Source: Methanosarcinales archaeon Met12 (GTDB lineage: Archaea > Halobacteriota > UBA148 > JAJOKI01). From it: 64,000 bases of DNA. The stretch is from assembly GCA_002813105.2 (NCBI GenBank), contig CP017966.2:978745-1042744 (forward strand), given 5' to 3'. The position numbers and the translations under genes were made by a program. Positions 27,917 through 47,842 of the stretch are shown in pieces; the first letter of the stretch is position 1, and every line of letters starts with the position of its first letter. The notes beneath the pieces were generated by a model that was given only the letters and a program-made list of their open reading frames with translations, did not search any database and was not told the DNA's origin.

Positions 27917-29506
27917 ATGGCTGACATATATGCAAACGCAAGGTCTACAACCGGTACCGCTACGCGATTTAAGGATATAAGCCCCACAAGCGGCATGTGC
28001 CCTATTTGCGTAAAGAACTGTACAGTTTTATGTGAGATTGGCAAATCTGCCTTCAGAGGCAGAGAGGTGTTATATCCAGCGCCTGAAGAATTTGGACATA
28101 GCACCGCAGCATCAAATAAAGATTATGGACTGGATTGGTCGCATTTTCAGATATTGACCGATGTGTTGGGGGCAGAGGGAATAGAGCCAGACCCAGACAG
28201 GGCAATTTTCCCAGCTGCGGATGTCAAAACATCTGCTGGAGGAGTTCCGCTTAAGGTACCAGCATTCACGGCAGGATTGGGTTCCACTGCAGTGGCGCAG
28301 AATTACTGGAACGGATTGGCTGTGGGCGCAGCCATCTCGGGCACCATCCAGGTTATTGGGGAAAATATCTGCGGAATGGATATGAATTTGAAAATCACGA
28401 ATGGAGAGGTAGCGCACTCGGATAGTCTAAAGTATAGGGTTGACAAATACAGGGAATTCTGGGATGGTGTGCATGGCGACATAGTCGTCCAGACCAACGT
28501 GGAAGACCAGCGATTGGGCGTTGACAAGTATGCACTCTCTAAGTTAGAGGTCAACATCATCGAAAGGAAGTGGGGGCAGGGTGCCAAAGCTATCGGCGGC
28601 GAGGTAAGAATCGATGATATCGCCAAGGCGATAGAACTAAAAAGAAGGGGCTATGTTGTACTCCCAGACCCAGAAGACTCAAGCGTGCAGAGGGCTTTTA
28701 AAGAGGGCGCGTTCAAGACATTTGAGAGGCACAGCAGAGTTGGGTTTCCGACGCATGAGGGTTTCGTAGAGGACGTGGAGAATCTAAGAGCACAAGGGGC
28801 TAAGCGCGTATTCCTTAAGACTGGGGCGTACAGGCCAGTAATAACTGCGTTCACGCTCAAGGCGGCTTCGGAAGCAAAGATTGACCTGCTTACATTTGAT
28901 GGTGCAGGCGGAGGGACGGGTATGAGTCCAGTACCTATGATGAACGAGTGCGCCACGCCAACCGTATATCTACAAGCACAGGTTATGAAATGTATAGAAT
29001 TGCTGAAGAAGAAGGGCAGATATGTGCCAGATATTGCATTCGCTGGCGGGTTCGTCAACGAAACGCAGATGTTCAAGTCGATAGCAATGAGCGATATGGG
29101 CAGCGGTCCGCATGTGAAGGCCATTGCAATGGCAAGGGCTCCGATAACCGCAGTGATGAAGGCAGAACACTTTGTTGAACTGGCGAATGAGGGCAAATTG
29201 CCAAGGTCATTTGAACAAAATTATGGCGCAGCTCCAGAGCAGTTCTTTATTGCAATGTCCGACCTGGTGGATGAGTATGGTGCACGCGCCAGGGAGCTCC
29301 CAGCTGGTGCGGTTGGATTGTATACCTACTATGTTGACCGGCTTGGAACAGGTCTGAAGCAATTGATGGCAGGCTCAAGAAAGTTCAAGCTGAATCTGAT
29401 AAGCAGAAACGATATTGCGTCCATATCAGAGATTGCAGAGAGAGTTACAGGCATTCCAATGATAGACAAGATCGAGAGCGACTTGATGGAGAGCATTCTT
29501 TCTTAA
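27917..29506 (+). CDS. gltB: FMN-binding glutamate synthase-family protein (archaeal large subunit type)
   Basis: 529 residues. The N-terminus has a cysteine group CPICVKNCTVLC (near residues 28-39) for an iron-sulfur site. The rest is the FMN-binding TIM-barrel of the glutamate synthase central domain, including FDGAGGGTGMSP near 330-341 and FAGGFVN near 373. Archaeal glutamate synthases are split into separate polypeptides; the amidotransferase and NADPH subunits are not in this window. Lying 1.4 kb downstream of glnA, it fits ammonia assimilation. A related role (methylamine-glutamate methyltransferase-like) cannot be fully ruled out. It converges with nadC. Confidence 0.85.
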   Translation: MADIYANARSTTGTATRFKDISPTSGMCPICVKNCTVLCEIGKSAFRGREVLYPAPEEFGHSTAASNKDYGLDWSHFQILTDVLGAEGIEPDPDRAIFPAADVKTSAGGVPLKVPAFTAGLGSTAVAQNYWNGLAVGAAISGTIQVIGENICGMDMNLKITNGEVAHSDSLKYRVDKYREFWDGVHGDIVVQTNVEDQRLGVDKYALSKLEVNIIERKWGQGAKAIGGEVRIDDIAKAIELKRRGYVVLPDPEDSSVQRAFKEGAFKTFERHSRVGFPTHEGFVEDVENLRAQGAKRVFLKTGAYRPVITAFTLKAASEAKIDLLTFDGAGGGTGMSPVPMMNECATPTVYLQAQVMKCIELLKKKGRYVPDIAFAGGFVNETQMFKSIAMSDMGSGPHVKAIAMARAPITAVMKAEHFVELANEGKLPRSFEQNYGAAPEQFFIAMSDLVDEYGARARELPAGAVGLYTYYVDRLGTGLKQLMAGSRKFKLNLISRNDIASISEIAERVTGIPMIDKIESDLMESILS

Positions 29507-29510
29507 CTGT

Positions 29511-30323
29511 TTATTCAACCAAATTCAGGTTGAAGTTCAGCCATCCTGCCGAATGTGTGAGTGCCCCCATTGAGATTATGTCAACTCCAGTATCAGCGTA
29601 ATCGTTTAGATTATCGAGTGTGATTCCACCAGATGCCTCAAGCTTCACTCGAGTTCGCAGACTCGCTTTCTTCAATTTTTCCACCGCATCCATGATATCC
29701 TCTGGAGCCATATTATCGAACATTATGGTATCGATGCCGAGCTGTGCTGCCTTGATGGCATCATTTGTATCCTCCACTTCGACCTCTATATTCTTTTCAG
29801 GATGGAGTTCTCGTGCTTTATCAATAACTGCCTTTAAACCTGCTATTTTGATATGGTTGTCCTTGATCAGGACGGCTTCAGCCAGATTGAACCTGTGCGG
29901 ATGACCGCCGCCTATTTTGATGGCCTTTTTCTCAAATTTCCTGAATCCTGGAGTGGTCTTTCTGGTGCCAGCAATCGTCACGCCCTTACTGCACTTCACA
30001 CATGACCGAGTGAGCGTGGCGATGCCGCTCATTCGTCCCAAAAAGTTCAGCGCCAATCGTTCTCCAACGAGAATTGATCTGGCATTTCCACTCACCTCTA
30101 AAATCACGTCACCCTTCTTGAACTCGGCACCATCTCTGAATTTAGATTGAACATCAAGTCCGAAATGCTCGAATATTTGTTTCGCCTCCTCGAGACCGGC
30201 TAAAATACCGTCTTCGCCTGCCTTGATGTGCGCTTTAACATGGACATCTGGAACTGCCGCTCCAGTGATGTCCCCTGAACCAACATCCTCTTCGAGGAAG
30301 CGCTTGAGTTCGACAGTTCTCAT
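29511..30323 (-). CDS. nadC: Nicotinate-nucleotide pyrophosphorylase (carboxylating)
   Basis: 270 residues. Quinolinate phosphoribosyltransferase with EDVGSGDIT at the N-terminus (near residues 12-20), the conserved AGTRKTTPGFR (near 113-123) and HRFNLAEAVLIKDNHI (near 137-152), and LEASGGI near the C-terminus. It turns quinolinate and PRPP into nicotinate mononucleotide. It is divergent from nadX-nadA over 115 bases, so all three genes of the aspartate-to-NaMN route sit together. Confidence 0.96.
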   Translation of the reverse strand: MRTVELKRFLEEDVGSGDITGAAVPDVHVKAHIKAGEDGILAGLEEAKQIFEHFGLDVQSKFRDGAEFKKGDVILEVSGNARSILVGERLALNFLGRMSGIATLTRSCVKCSKGVTIAGTRKTTPGFRKFEKKAIKIGGGHPHRFNLAEAVLIKDNHIKIAGLKAVIDKARELHPEKNIEVEVEDTNDAIKAAQLGIDTIMFDNMAPEDIMDAVEKLKKASLRTRVKLEASGGITLDNLNDYADTGVDIISMGALTHSAGWLNFNLNLVE

Positions 30324-30392
30324 GATTCTCTCTAATACTTTTCACTACCACCATAAATCCTTTTATGCTTGTGGCATATTAGTTTCTTCGAT

Positions 30393-30436
30393 GTTGAAAT
30401 TTCGTAGAAATTACAACTTGGAATTCCGAAGGAATT
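30393..30436 (+). promoter_or_regulatory. Two hairpins in the nadX leader covering the ribosome-binding site
   Basis: Hairpin 1: an 11-pair stem with one mismatch, 30393-30403 with 30407-30417, loop GTA. Hairpin 2: AATTCC-gaa-GGAATT (30422-30436), ending 2 bases before the nadX ATG at 30439. The only Shine-Dalgarno-like sequence, AAGGA (30429-30433), is in the loop and 3' arm of hairpin 2. The pair could control translation of nadX-nadA, or be an insertion of a hairpin repeat also seen in the tRNA-Lys intron. Confidence 0.5.
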
Positions 30437-30438
30437 GC

Positions 30439-31251
30439 ATGAAGATAGGGATAGTTGGTTGCGGCGCGATAGGCAAGACGATCTGCAGGGCTTTCGACCA
30501 GGGCATCATCAATGCCCATCTCACGGCGTTATCGGATAGAGACCCCGTATCAGCACAAGAACTTGCCGATTCTCTTGTAAATATACGGCCAAGGGTCATG
30601 GATACATCTGCGCTAATAGATGCGGTTGATCTGGTTGTGGAATGTGCTGCCCAGTCCGCAGTTCCAGATATAGTAATACCTGCGCTGGAAAAGGGCAGGG
30701 ATGTGATGATTATGAGCATTGGGGCACTTACGGATGAAAGACTATGGAGACGAATCAAGAGCCTTGCCAGCGAGCATGACTGCAGGGTGTACCTGCCCTC
30801 TGGTGCGATCGTTGGCTTGGACGGGCTGAAATCCGCCTCGATGGCAAAAATGTCATCCGTCATGCTCATCACCAGGAAGCATCCATCTGGCTTTCAAGGG
30901 GCGCCATATATCGAGCAGCACAAAATAGATTTGAATGCGCTGAAAAAGGCAACCATCATATTCGAGGGATGCGCTGAAGACGCTGTCAGAGCCTTTCCCG
31001 CCAACGTGAACGTAGCCGCTACGTTGAGCCTGGCAGGCATCGGGACTAAAAATACCAGAGTCAGGATTATCGCAGACCCAGCCCTGAGCAGAAACGTCCA
31101 TGAAATTTATGTGGAAGGAGAGTTCGGTAAATTCGAGACGCGAGTTGAAAATGTACCGTCTCCAGACAACCCAAGGACGAGTTATCTGGCAGCACTGTCC
31201 ACAATTGCCACCCTGAAAAAAATAGTTGATGAAATTCAGATTGGGACATAG
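30439..31251 (+). CDS. nadX: L-aspartate dehydrogenase
   Basis: 270 residues from ATG 30439; the longer frame to 30223 crosses the nadC start region and hairpins and is rejected. Rossmann motif KIGIVGCGAIGKTI at the N-terminus, ECAAQSAV near residue 71, YLPSGAIVGLDGL near 119 and the C-terminal NVNVAATLSLAGIG (catalytic asparagine/histidine region) near 190. Oxidises aspartate to iminoaspartate, replacing the flavoenzyme NadB. The stop is 2 bases before the nadA start. Confidence 0.93.
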   Translation: MKIGIVGCGAIGKTICRAFDQGIINAHLTALSDRDPVSAQELADSLVNIRPRVMDTSALIDAVDLVVECAAQSAVPDIVIPALEKGRDVMIMSIGALTDERLWRRIKSLASEHDCRVYLPSGAIVGLDGLKSASMAKMSSVMLITRKHPSGFQGAPYIEQHKIDLNALKKATIIFEGCAEDAVRAFPANVNVAATLSLAGIGTKNTRVRIIADPALSRNVHEIYVEGEFGKFETRVENVPSPDNPRTSYLAALSTIATLKKIVDEIQIGT

Positions 31252-31253
31252 TT

Positions 31254-32159
31254 ATGCTACAAGATAAAATACGCCAGTTGAAGGAGGAAAGAAATGCAAT
31301 CATACTCGCCCACAACTATCAGATAGGCGAGATACAAGACATCGCGGATTATGTCGGGGATTCACTTGGACTGAGCCAGAAGGCGACGGAAAGCAATGCG
31401 GACGTCATCGTGTTCTGCGGTGTAGATTTCATGGCAGAAAGTGCCGCCATACTAAACCCGGATAAGACCGTCTTGATGCCTGATGTCGGAGCGACTTGTC
31501 CGATGGCTATGATGATCACTCCTGAAGCTTTGCGCGCCGAGAAGAAAAAACATCCAGATGCGGCAGTGGTATGTTACGTGAATACGAGCGCCGCTGTCAA
31601 AGCCGAGAGTGACATATGTTGCACGTCCTCAAACGCTGTCAAAATCGTAAATTCGATGAACGAAAAGGAAATCATCTTCGTTCCTGACAAGAACCTGTCG
31701 TTATACGTGGCAGCAAAAACGAACAAAAAAATAATACCATGGGATGGATACTGCCCGTCCCACCACATCATCTTAAAAGGAGATGTGCTACTGGCAAAGG
31801 CGAAACATCCGGCAGGGAAGATACTCGTGCACCCGGAATGCCGTCCAGAGGTGATAGAATTAGCAGATGAGGTTTTAAGCACAGGCGGGATGGTTCGATA
31901 TGTTAAAGGGTCGTCTGCGATGGGATTCATCATCGGCACCGAGATAGGAATACTATATCGATTGCGCAAGGAGAATCCAGACAAGACATTCTATCCTTCA
32001 TCTAACCAGGCCGTTTGTCCAAATATGAAGAAGAACACGCTGGATAAGGTGGCAAAGGCACTGAAAAATATGGAGCATCAGATCACCGTGCCAGAGGATA
32101 TACGCATTAAAGCAAAACAAGCACTGGATAAAATGTTAAAGGTTGGAAGAGATGATTAA
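31254..32159 (+). CDS. nadA: Quinolinate synthase
   Basis: 301 residues. Three repeated Rossmann-like lobes and conserved cysteines for the 4Fe-4S cluster: VFCGVDFMAE (near residue 59), the P-D-V-G-A-T-C-P-M-A segment (near 83) and HPECRPEV (near 198). LAHNYQIGEIQDIADYVGDS at 19-38 is the family signature. Condenses iminoaspartate with dihydroxyacetone phosphate. Translated right after nadX and overlapping the next gene by 8 bases. Confidence 0.97.
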   Translation: MLQDKIRQLKEERNAIILAHNYQIGEIQDIADYVGDSLGLSQKATESNADVIVFCGVDFMAESAAILNPDKTVLMPDVGATCPMAMMITPEALRAEKKKHPDAAVVCYVNTSAAVKAESDICCTSSNAVKIVNSMNEKEIIFVPDKNLSLYVAAKTNKKIIPWDGYCPSHHIILKGDVLLAKAKHPAGKILVHPECRPEVIELADEVLSTGGMVRYVKGSSAMGFIIGTEIGILYRLRKENPDKTFYPSSNQAVCPNMKKNTLDKVAKALKNMEHQITVPEDIRIKAKQALDKMLKVGRDD

Positions 32160-32979
32160 ATATCTCGAACTGACCAGGCCGTTGAATTGTCTGATGGCTG
32201 GACTGGCAATCTTGATAGGCAGCATCGTCGGAGCAGGTGGTGCTGTATCTCCATACATGTCCCAGATGGCACTTGCATTCATCGCTGGATGTGTCATCAC
32301 GGCAGGTGGCAACGCCATCAATGATTTTTATGATGCGAAAATTGATGCGACCAACAAACCTTTTAGGCCAATACCGAGCGGGCGCGTCAGCGCTAAGGGT
32401 GCCCTCCGTTTCTCTATCGGACTGTTAACAGTCGGCGTTGCTCTATCTTACTTCATAAATTTCATATGCTTTTTGATAGCAATGGCAAATTCGCTAATTT
32501 TAATTTATTATGCCTACCGACTCAAGAGGACGGTGTTATGGGGTAATATTTGCATCGGCTATCTCACCGGTTCGGCGTTCTTGTTCGGTGGAGCAGCCGT
32601 GAACGGCATTGCAGTCACATCAACGCTCTTTATGCTCGCGATGCTAACTACGATCGGGAGGGAAATAGTAAAGGACATGGAAGATTTAGAGGGAGATAAA
32701 AAAGAGGGCGCGGTCACATTACCAATTCGCATAGGAAAACGTAAATCCACAATGGTAGCGTTAATGTTTATCATACTGGCAGTCTTGTTGAGTCCCATTC
32801 CAGTAATATTCGGAATCCTCGGCACCTCATATCTTTTAGTGGTGGCTCTGGCATGCGTCATCTTGTTAGTGGGCGGCGCAGTGATAAAAAAATCTCCATC
32901 TATGGCATCATTGCTCATCAAGAGTGCGATGGTGGTGGCGCTGTTTGCGTTCATCGTTGGGGCTATGTTAGTCAAATAA
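32152..32979 (+). CDS. Digeranylgeranylglyceryl phosphate synthase (UbiA family)
   Basis: About 275 residues from ATG 32152; TTG 32143 is an alternative. Integral membrane prenyltransferase with about eight hydrophobic segments. The first Asp-rich motif NAINDFYDAKIDATNKPFRP (near residues 58-77) is followed by IPSGR. The second Asp-rich motif is KDMEDLEGDKKEGAVTLP (near 173-190). It adds the second geranylgeranyl chain to GGGP, making the archaeal diether lipid core. It follows nadA with overlap. DGGGP synthase is favoured over a quinone prenyltransferase by similarity to the archaeal family. Confidence 0.88.
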   Translation: MIKYLELTRPLNCLMAGLAILIGSIVGAGGAVSPYMSQMALAFIAGCVITAGGNAINDFYDAKIDATNKPFRPIPSGRVSAKGALRFSIGLLTVGVALSYFINFICFLIAMANSLILIYYAYRLKRTVLWGNICIGYLTGSAFLFGGAAVNGIAVTSTLFMLAMLTTIGREIVKDMEDLEGDKKEGAVTLPIRIGKRKSTMVALMFIILAVLLSPIPVIFGILGTSYLLVVALACVILLVGGAVIKKSPSMASLLIKSAMVVALFAFIVGAMLVK

Positions 32980-46988: not shown

Positions 46989-47473
46989 TTCGCGCCAAAA
47001 TCTTAGGTTGACTTCTACTTCTTTTGAACTCAAGCCAAGGTCACGTGCGATCTGTTTAGATGTGAACTACCCCCTACAACCTCCAGTTGCGAGGAAGGAG
47101 ATTCTTACATCTATCATACCAAAACTGTTTTTGGGACTATTCCGATCAACAGACCTGTTTTTCGCGGTTTACCAACGAATTGTTGAAAGCAAGCCCCGTC
47201 CACAGGGCAGCATGTTTTAAATATTTATTTTGAGTTCGGTTTTAATTTATGATTGGAATAAACATCTGCGTTTGAATGTACGCATATTTTTTATATCCCC
47301 TTTACGTGTGATGCTTTTGTTTTTAGGAGTGATATTAACCCCCTCTCTTAAGATAATGGTTTATCTCTTTTTAGCGAGCATATCAATTTTTTAATCTCTA
47401 TTTAAAACTATTGCTATTTTTAGCGTTGACCTAGAATGAACATCTGGGCATCCGCTTAACTCTTTGATTTAAG
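46989..47473. other. 485-base gap before the tRNA-Lys 3' end
   Basis: No convincing gene. On the minus strand, about 46985-47060 encodes SKQIARDLGLSSKEVEVNLR, a helix-turn-helix-like stretch without start codon and preceded by a stop, perhaps a relic. The rest (47220-47460) is AT-rich with no visible structure. No promoter can be assigned with confidence. Confidence 0.35.
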
Positions 47474-47842
47474 CGGGCCGGAAGGGATTTGAACCCTTGA
47501 CCTATGGGTGACTCTCCAACTTAATTCCTTTGGAATTTCAACATGCATCAGATGAGACATGTCGCAGTTCGGAGAACTGCGAGAGTTGTATTTCCTTCGG
47601 AAATTCGGAAATTCAACACCCCGACTAAATCAACAGATTTAGCGGACTCGCAGATGTTTCATCTGCGACCCCTCTGGTGGAGTTGTAATCCAGGTGGGAC
47701 TTCAGCAGTGCTCGATAGATTCATAATGCGAGCGCATGCAACGCTTTGGTTCAAACGTTCTAATAGAACGTTTTGGTTCAAGCGTTCTAATAGAACGCTT
47801 TGGTTAAGAGCCCATCGCTCCACCTAACTAAGCTACCGGCCC
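47474..47842 (-). tRNA. tRNA-Lys(CTT) with a 295-nt intron
   Basis: Exon 1 47842-47805, intron 47804-47510, exon 2 47509-47474; mature length 74 nt, no encoded CCA. Acceptor GGGCCGG/CCGGCCC, discriminator G. The anticodon stem ATGGG/CCCAT encloses CTCTTAA (anticodon CTT). T arm AAGGG-TTCAAAT-CCCTT. The junction folds as a canonical bulge-helix-bulge: 4-bp helix CTCT/AGAG, flanking bulges TAA and TCA (cuts TA^A and TC^A), outer helix CCAA/TTGG. The intron sits at the standard 37/38 position but is unusually long and full of hairpins and a 27-nt tandem repeat. The endonuclease that would remove it is encoded at 22.2-23.3 kb. Confidence 0.95.
47510..47804. repeat. Hairpins and 27-nt tandem repeat within the tRNA-Lys intron
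   Basis: Perfect stems in order: AATTCC-ttt-GGAATT (47523-47537), CGCAGTTC-gga-GAACTGCG (47563-47581), ATTTCC-ttc-GGAAAT (47590-47604), CGCAGATG-ttt-CATCTGCG (47649-47667), AACGTTC-taata-GAACGTT (47754-47772) and AGCGTTC-taata-GAACGCT (47781-47799). The word ACG(C/T)TTTGGTT recurs at 47741, 47768 and 47795, a 27-nt period. All loops are 3 or 5 bases. Several stems resemble those in front of nadX. Confidence 0.85.

Follow-up and report, generated by a model that had tools for sequence, protein, structure and literature searches.

Are the two stem-loops in front of nadX a regulatory device of this gene, or did they come to it from elsewhere? The first-pass annotation of the window, that is, of the whole 64,000-nucleotide stretch of DNA that was analysed, had offered both answers: an RNA switch or thermometer-like control of NAD synthesis, or an inserted hairpin repeat that now influences translation. 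Its description of the locus is borne out. The two stem-loops are recovered by an inverted-repeat scan, the names nadX and nadA are right by profile matches, as is that of the divergent nadC, and the sequence agrees that hairpin 2 (AATTCC 30422-30427, loop gaa 30428-30430, GGAATT 30431-30436) is followed by GC and then by the ATG at 30439, with AAGGA in its loop and 3' arm. In hairpin A, 9 of the 10 stem pairs are formed and the A.A mismatch stands at the fourth position, the position 4/20 that is typically unpaired in the repeat family described below. The region of the second hairpin is 3 nt shorter than the usual hairpin B of that family and resembles hairpin A by eye. The features are collected in Table 1. 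On the other side of nadC, a 529-aa ORF (27917-29506, + strand) has no NCBIfam match; in our reading it resembles an archaeal glutamate synthase-type protein.

Table 1. Positions of the features discussed, numbered from the first base of the window
Feature	Position	Strand	Basis
nadC, divergent from nadX	29511-30323	-	profile match
TTTTATG, TATA-like	30361-30367	+	common to sister species; putative promoter role
ATG at ancestral start position relative to upstream sequence	30391-30393	+	putative start
Inserted two-hairpin element, 48-bp variant of 51-bp family, TG...CA ends	30392-30439	+	absent from sister; R1 match
Hairpin A, TTGAAATTTC-gta-GAAATTACAA	30394-30416	+	inverted-repeat scan and family motif
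Second hairpin	30420-30438	+	stem AATTCC/GGAATT, loop gaa
AAGGA, Shine-Dalgarno-like	30429-30433	+	within inserted element; spans loop and 3' arm of hairpin 2
ATG with ancestral downstream context, native NadX start	30439-30441	+	sister comparison
nadX, aspartate dehydrogenase	30439-31251 (30391-31251 with upstream ATG)	+	NF009830, 342 bits
nadA, quinolinate synthase	31254-32159	+	profile match
tRNA-Lys(CTT), 295-nt intron at position 38/39	47473-47842	-	ARAGORN, introns allowed

Is the hairpin pair an old part of the nadX leader? This genome (G000, 1,067,436 bases or 1.07 Mb) has a sister (G001, 76% complete), and the NadX encoded at the sister locus (L046, Methanocellales archaeon isolate MAG-838) is 90% identical. 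There the sequence reads TTCTTCG-ATGAAGATAGGG, without the 48-nt insert of the window and with otherwise near-identical flanks. The run from upstream to the start is TTAGTTTCTTCG-ATGAAGATAGGG, a net difference of 48 bp from the window, and the empty site can be written as TTCTTCGA/TGAAGATA. As 48 bp are missing between near-identical flanks, the most economical account is that the element was recently inserted between the A and the TG of the start codon. With TG as its first and CA as its last two bases, it makes both junctions read ATG; nadX has thereby come to possess two ATGs in the same frame, separated by 48 nt, and owing to this repeated ATG the element fits 30391-30438 as well as the positions in Table 1. 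At the level of sequence, then, comparison of the two species shows that the element entered the nadX start codon after their split. The pair is missing from all 29 other nadX loci compared (the sister, nine further genomes of the order and 19 outside it), the 30 loci being drawn from 76 genomes with a nadX match. The sister locus has one unrelated 6-bp inverted repeat farther upstream.

These comparisons bear directly on the proposed switch, in which hairpin 2 would hide AAGGA, open with NAD, aspartate or temperature, and so control nadX-nadA. The position of AAGGA suits such a device: it spans the loop and 3' arm of a stem that is predicted 2 nt 5' of the ATG. However, the 48 bp are absent from the sister and from the 28 other compared loci, the region 29000-32500 has no Rfam match up to E 1, and elements of the same family lie also within unrelated coding genes and a tRNA intron; we consider a switch in cis very improbable. 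The check for hairpins conserved upstream of nadX in relatives found none. Compensatory change was found between copies of the family at unrelated sites, while at nadX itself there is no hairpin conservation. What stands of the earlier reading is the insertion of a hairpin repeat, and an effect of the insert on translation is possible.

If the hairpins are not distinguished by conservation, are they distinguished by their folding? The segment 30380-30460 folded alone reaches -17.3 kcal/mol (z -1.65, with 13/200 shuffles at least as stable), 30389-30438 gives z -2.40 (5/200) and 30391-30480 only z -0.97 (31/200). With such values across the three cuts, the folding energy of the leader is just mildly unusual. 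The property of the nadX hairpins that goes beyond chance is their membership of a family.

How is this family distributed? The motif TTGNAATYYCNNNGRRATTNCAA, with up to three mismatches, occurs at 39 sites of the genome against 3 for a reversed control. Both nadX hairpins fit it, and the window holds four matches against a shuffle mean of 0.58, a number reached in one of 100 shuffles. With at most two mismatches there are 28 sites in this genome, 12 in the sister and 10 in G003, while the remaining 97 of the 100 genomes have between 0 and 5 each; the reversed control gives 0-3 in every genome, and the motif sites include some chance matches. A covariance model, R1, was built from 28 canonical copies without the nadX copy. 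It nevertheless matches 30392-30439 with 33.6 bits (E 5.1e-07 within the window, 8.5e-06 across the whole genome). At E up to 0.01 it finds 46 matches in this genome, which are not a clean copy number since some are partial or opposite-strand duplicates of one place, 20 in the sister, 14 in G008, 11 in G003, 6 in G007, 4 in G009, 3 in G005 and 1 in G004; there are none in G002, G006 and G010 under search filters that are strict and may miss weak copies. Outside the order, two of 49 genomes (G013 and G050) have one weak match each. The family is thus a dispersed multicopy palindromic repeat, and the tandem hairpins of nadX are, judging from sequence, almost certainly an inserted copy of it. A plain count of hairpin density was uninformative: it gave 5 vs 2-4 in shuffles for the window of this genome and 27 vs 5-8 in the sister, but also 6 vs 1-2 in G012, a genome outside the order.

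Two other sources were considered and rejected. For carriage by viruses, IMG/VR gave two exact pattern matches, where by a rough estimate chance alone would supply one or two; in one of the matches, L148, the stem is paired throughout, which sets it apart from the family. For an origin from CRISPR repeats, the scan covered L065, L185, L186, the window and 20 contigs of the sister, and one array was seen; its repeats, in L185, contain ATTTCAATCCCACTATGGTCTGATT and have only TTTCAATCCC in common with the family. This array begins at about 12314 of L185 and lies in the stretch beside cas1 and cas4 of L065.

What does a complete copy look like? The canonical unit is 51 bp long and reads TG-TTGAAATYYC-NNN-GRRATTACAAC-TC-hairpin B-CA. 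The loci retrieved hold 28 copies (27 distinct) of exactly this length with the order TG-hairpin A-C-TC-hairpin B-CA, and they align without gaps; they come from this genome, the sister and loci of G003, G005, G007, G008 and G009, which make up three families of one order. The nadX copy departs from the canon in its 48 bp and in a second hairpin unlike the usual hairpin B. Among the 28 copies, 12 of the 18 pairs have changed on both sides, and the double-sided changes fill 71 cells, compared with 20.7 (sd 3.7) for shuffles and 1-9 when the partners are slid. A copy was listed only if both its hairpins paired and it had the set length, so the percentage of paired positions in this alignment is inflated by selection. 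A check free of that selection used all 50 sites of the retrieved loci picked by hairpin A alone (at most two mismatches). Hairpin B stands at the expected place with 8-9 of 9 pairs in 28 of them; 21, both nadX rows included, are without such a hairpin B, and for the remaining one no orientation could be assigned. In 49 of these 50 sites position 4/20 is non-Watson-Crick even though the search left it free, the exception being the unoriented site of L062. Longer arrays (L009 1501-1623, L002 389-840 and L067 1380-1600) hold extra hairpin modules, such as CCGaCTAACTC..GAGTTAGaCGG and others; these may belong to a second family of elements or be nested copies that have decayed.

Could the palindrome be a DNA operator to which an archaeal regulator, of NAD genes or of others, binds? 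Near-perfect palindromes close to a promoter and 39 motif sites in the genome would look like a regulon. Yet the arms vary by paired substitution at 12 of 18 pairs, unlike the fixed letters of a protein site, many copies lie within coding sequence and a tRNA intron, and the sister does without the element at nadX; an operator is hardly credible.

Which genes have received copies? Family copies stand in frame within guaB, tiaS, asnB, leuS, tmk and polB, and within elp3 of the relative G009; essential enzymes are thus among the hosts. The guaB product has 27 extra residues at the hairpins as compared with relatives, all six of which have the empty site, and the residues flanking the insert correspond to the adjacent residues 130 and 131 of IMP dehydrogenase 2cu0. 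The tiaS product matches the TiaS-type chain 3amt as two pieces that meet at residue 346, and the insertion site is again empty in six of six relatives. Both asnB and leuS are 42 nt longer, in frame, than the sister genes; against the LeuRS structure 1wz2, just small local gaps appear at the leuS insert. In elp3 of G009, 22 residues are missing from 6ia8, and the tmk segment lies in gaps against thymidylate kinase 5x98. The polB segment is N-terminal of the aligned part, and the frame is open through it; calling it an insert leans also on what we take archaeal PolB N-termini to be. Further hosts named by Pfam are a ThiS-family and a T2SSE-family gene, two open-frame hosts (L010 and L071) have no Pfam match, and copies at gene ends lengthen the ORFs of the RFC small subunit, HisE and a Cas4-like protein. 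At 12 other sites, inspected in a non-exhaustive check, none was seen to break a long ORF. Insertion in frame into conserved protein genes, with the segment missing in orthologues, is accordingly what the sequences of guaB, tiaS, asnB and leuS indicate. The LeuRS of the sister (L087 2597-5455, - strand) has an extra segment of its own, LVASTRFQQ, near the C-terminus where this genome has LIT, perhaps what is left of a further copy of the family.

The frame of the host genes stays open through the inserts, and translation of the inserts is putative. Might the ribosome, or RNA processing, skip the hairpins instead? Hairpin inserts in many genes are what such bypassing or splicing would accommodate, and there is a precedent in the bypassed palindromic elements described for a yeast mitochondrion (PMC6649704). 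But bypass would need neither an open frame through the insert nor net lengths that are multiples of three, and both are found (81 bp in guaB, 102 in tiaS, 42 in asnB and 42 in leuS). Skipping of this kind is therefore most unlikely.

Copies are also found in an RNA gene. The tRNA-Lys(CTT) gene of Table 1 was missed by a default tRNA scan. Its intron has one strong family match by R1 (47560-47618, E 9e-16) and two weak ones (47658-47707, E 0.003; 47509-47543, E 0.025), and Rfam gave no match on this region. A 27-bp tandem repeat of 2.4 copies (47740-47805) lies in the same intron.

Is there a rule by which copies insert? At three places, L007, L057 (tiaS) and L190 (in the sister), exact excision of 51 bp rebuilds an outer 51-mer of the family, and the cut point falls after base 26 of the outer copy in all three; random nearby excisions gave a qualifying outer 51-mer in 5 of 2867 cases. 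By eye, the junctions of these three nested copies are ambiguous by no more than one base, which means that the target is not really duplicated. The tiaS insert consists of two nested 51-mers, and its net length against the sister, 102 bp, is 2 x 51. The other net lengths against the sister are 81 bp in guaB, 42 in asnB and leuS, 48 in nadX and 45 in the HisRS leader, the last of which is filled in the sister, by one canonical 51-mer, and empty in this genome. Since 51 does not divide all of these differences, the target or the element must also have changed in sequence. With a 51-bp unit and a duplication of at most 1 bp, a copy that lands in a gene adds 17 codons. The 28 canonical copies have on average 3.4 of six frames free of stops, compared with 2.4 for random 51-mers of the same composition, and 25 of them have three or four.

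What enzyme could move such an element? Single-strand transposition by a Y1 enzyme would fit hairpins with mismatches, two hairpins as ends and the lack of target duplication. The element may then be REP-like and mobilised in trans by a RAYT/IS200-type Y1 transposase, for which speak the duplication of at most 1 bp, the fixed stem mismatch, and Y1 matches in G007, G008 and, with stops, G002. Nevertheless, with the Y1 profile (PF01797) 3 of the 12 genomes searched have a match and the two genomes with most copies, this one and the 76% complete sister, have none. The Y1 loci examined in G002, G007 and G008 are without a family hairpin, and the insertion points have no obvious common target word by eye. 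Mobilisation by Y1 is thus unlikely. The transposase search covered the Y1 family only, the ORFs of L073 and L074 included.

Where does translation of nadX start after the insertion? The ATG at 30391 opens a 16-codon in-frame extension, MLKFRRNYNLEFRRNC, ahead of MKIGIV, and the copy is open in the gene frame. The TTTTATG at 30361-30367, a weak TATA match, stands 30 to 24 nt 5' of this first ATG, and by eye the ancestral nadX ATG is preceded in each of the ten further genomes of the order, at about 30-24 nt, by a T-rich stretch that resembles TTTTATG or TTTCAT; none of these ten has a Shine-Dalgarno-like word directly 5' of nadX, again by eye. The usual archaeal distance from TATA box to start would put the transcription start near 30391. 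Given a TATA-like stretch at that distance, a leaderless start at 30391 is the simplest reading. Caution is needed, since the TATA match is weak and no clear AT peak near -28, which would be the leaderless-gene profile of the lineage, was seen over 162 first genes; 52 of these 162 have a Shine-Dalgarno-like motif. We lean slightly towards use of the upstream ATG at 30391 as the nadX start. In an AlphaFold model of NadX with the 16 added residues (alignment of 27 sequences, model mean 85.4), residues 1-14 have pLDDT below 50. The tail is thus predicted to be disordered, and the model shows tolerance at most.

Then why would such an element persist? One explanation is that it is selfish DNA, which may be retained by virtue of frame-neutral insertion, while compensatory change would preserve its stems, since movement would require the strand, DNA or RNA, in folded form. 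The insertion at nadX would be tolerated, and no regulated switch is proposed. In the likeliest course, the transcript still begins near 30391 and is translated from the ATG at the ancestral position, giving NadX with a disordered tail of 16 residues; alternatively, initiation would take place at 30439, where the Shine-Dalgarno-like AAGGA would be partly closed by hairpin 2. As a whole we regard the reading as an insertion as very probable. A wider proposal, which we put forward tentatively and would not yet bet on, is that with this family an archaeal order may have mobile elements of a new class: a geneless 51-bp unit of two hairpins which makes no target duplication, adds 17 codons, inserts into itself after base 26 and moves as a folded single strand, its stems evolving by compensatory change for that reason. 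If this is true, every insertion of 51 bp lengthens a gene by exactly 17 codons, the element can spread through essential genes, and self-insertion after base 26 builds Russian-doll arrays of hairpins. On the insertion reading itself, what had looked like an NAD switch is a recent insertion whose empty site is known, and an archaeal order has a frame-neutral, probably selfish repeat that stands in the genes for DNA polymerase B, leucyl-tRNA synthetase, IMP dehydrogenase and TiaS. With the exact 51-bp unit, the nesting rule and a sister species that offers filled and empty sites, both movement and peptide production of coding palindromes become directly testable.

How does the family compare with known systems? 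REP sequences and BIMEs are short hairpins with stem mismatches, often paired and without target duplication; they lie outside genes and are accompanied by a Y1 RAYT gene. The nadX family resembles them in its short mismatched hairpins, in their pairing and in the lack of target duplication, but its copies also lie within coding genes, and no Y1 was found in this genome or the sister. REPs are treated as elements of intergenic regions of bacteria and archaea in the account cited here (PMC12306157). Like MITEs, the family is small, non-autonomous and dispersed. Most bacterial MITEs, as described in PMC2229807, have terminal inverted repeats and target duplications, whereas the family has just TG...CA ends and a duplication of at most 1 bp.

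Closer relatives in kind are palindromes fused into proteins. Palindromic elements of Rickettsia are reportedly the subject of Ogata et al. 2000 and 2002, protein-coding palindromic repeats of Wolbachia of Ogata et al. 2005, and coding palindromic repeats of Methanocaldococcus jannaschii of Suyama et al. 2005. M. jannaschii belongs to a different archaeal lineage from the hosts of the nadX family. The Rickettsia palindromic elements (RPE) are described as dispersed bacterial palindromes of about 105-150 bp, in frame in unrelated conserved protein genes and also between genes and in RNA genes (PMC10969869, PMC2229807). The nadX family likewise stands in frame in unrelated conserved genes, between genes and in RNA genes of a small genome, and by analogy the element is one that works like RPE. 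Compared by description, it is unlike them in its 51-bp unit, two triloop hairpins, fixed nesting point and archaeal hosts. The Wolbachia repeats are described as coding palindromic insertions in a bacterium (PMC2229807, PMC2996958); the nadX family shares the palindromic coding insertion and differs in its archaeal hosts. The M. jannaschii repeats are described as palindromes fused into protein genes (PMC2229807, PMC2996958), and the nadX family can be likened to them, again by description, as archaeal, palindromic, coding and fused into protein genes. No title on the present element was found among open-licence PMC papers, which is no proof of absence. In-frame palindromic repeats are thus already known from Rickettsia, Wolbachia and M. 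jannaschii as these sources describe them, and the nadX family adds a variant. It is set apart by its 51-bp unit, the lack of target duplication, the fixed nesting point and the spread over an order, the M. jannaschii element being known here by description.
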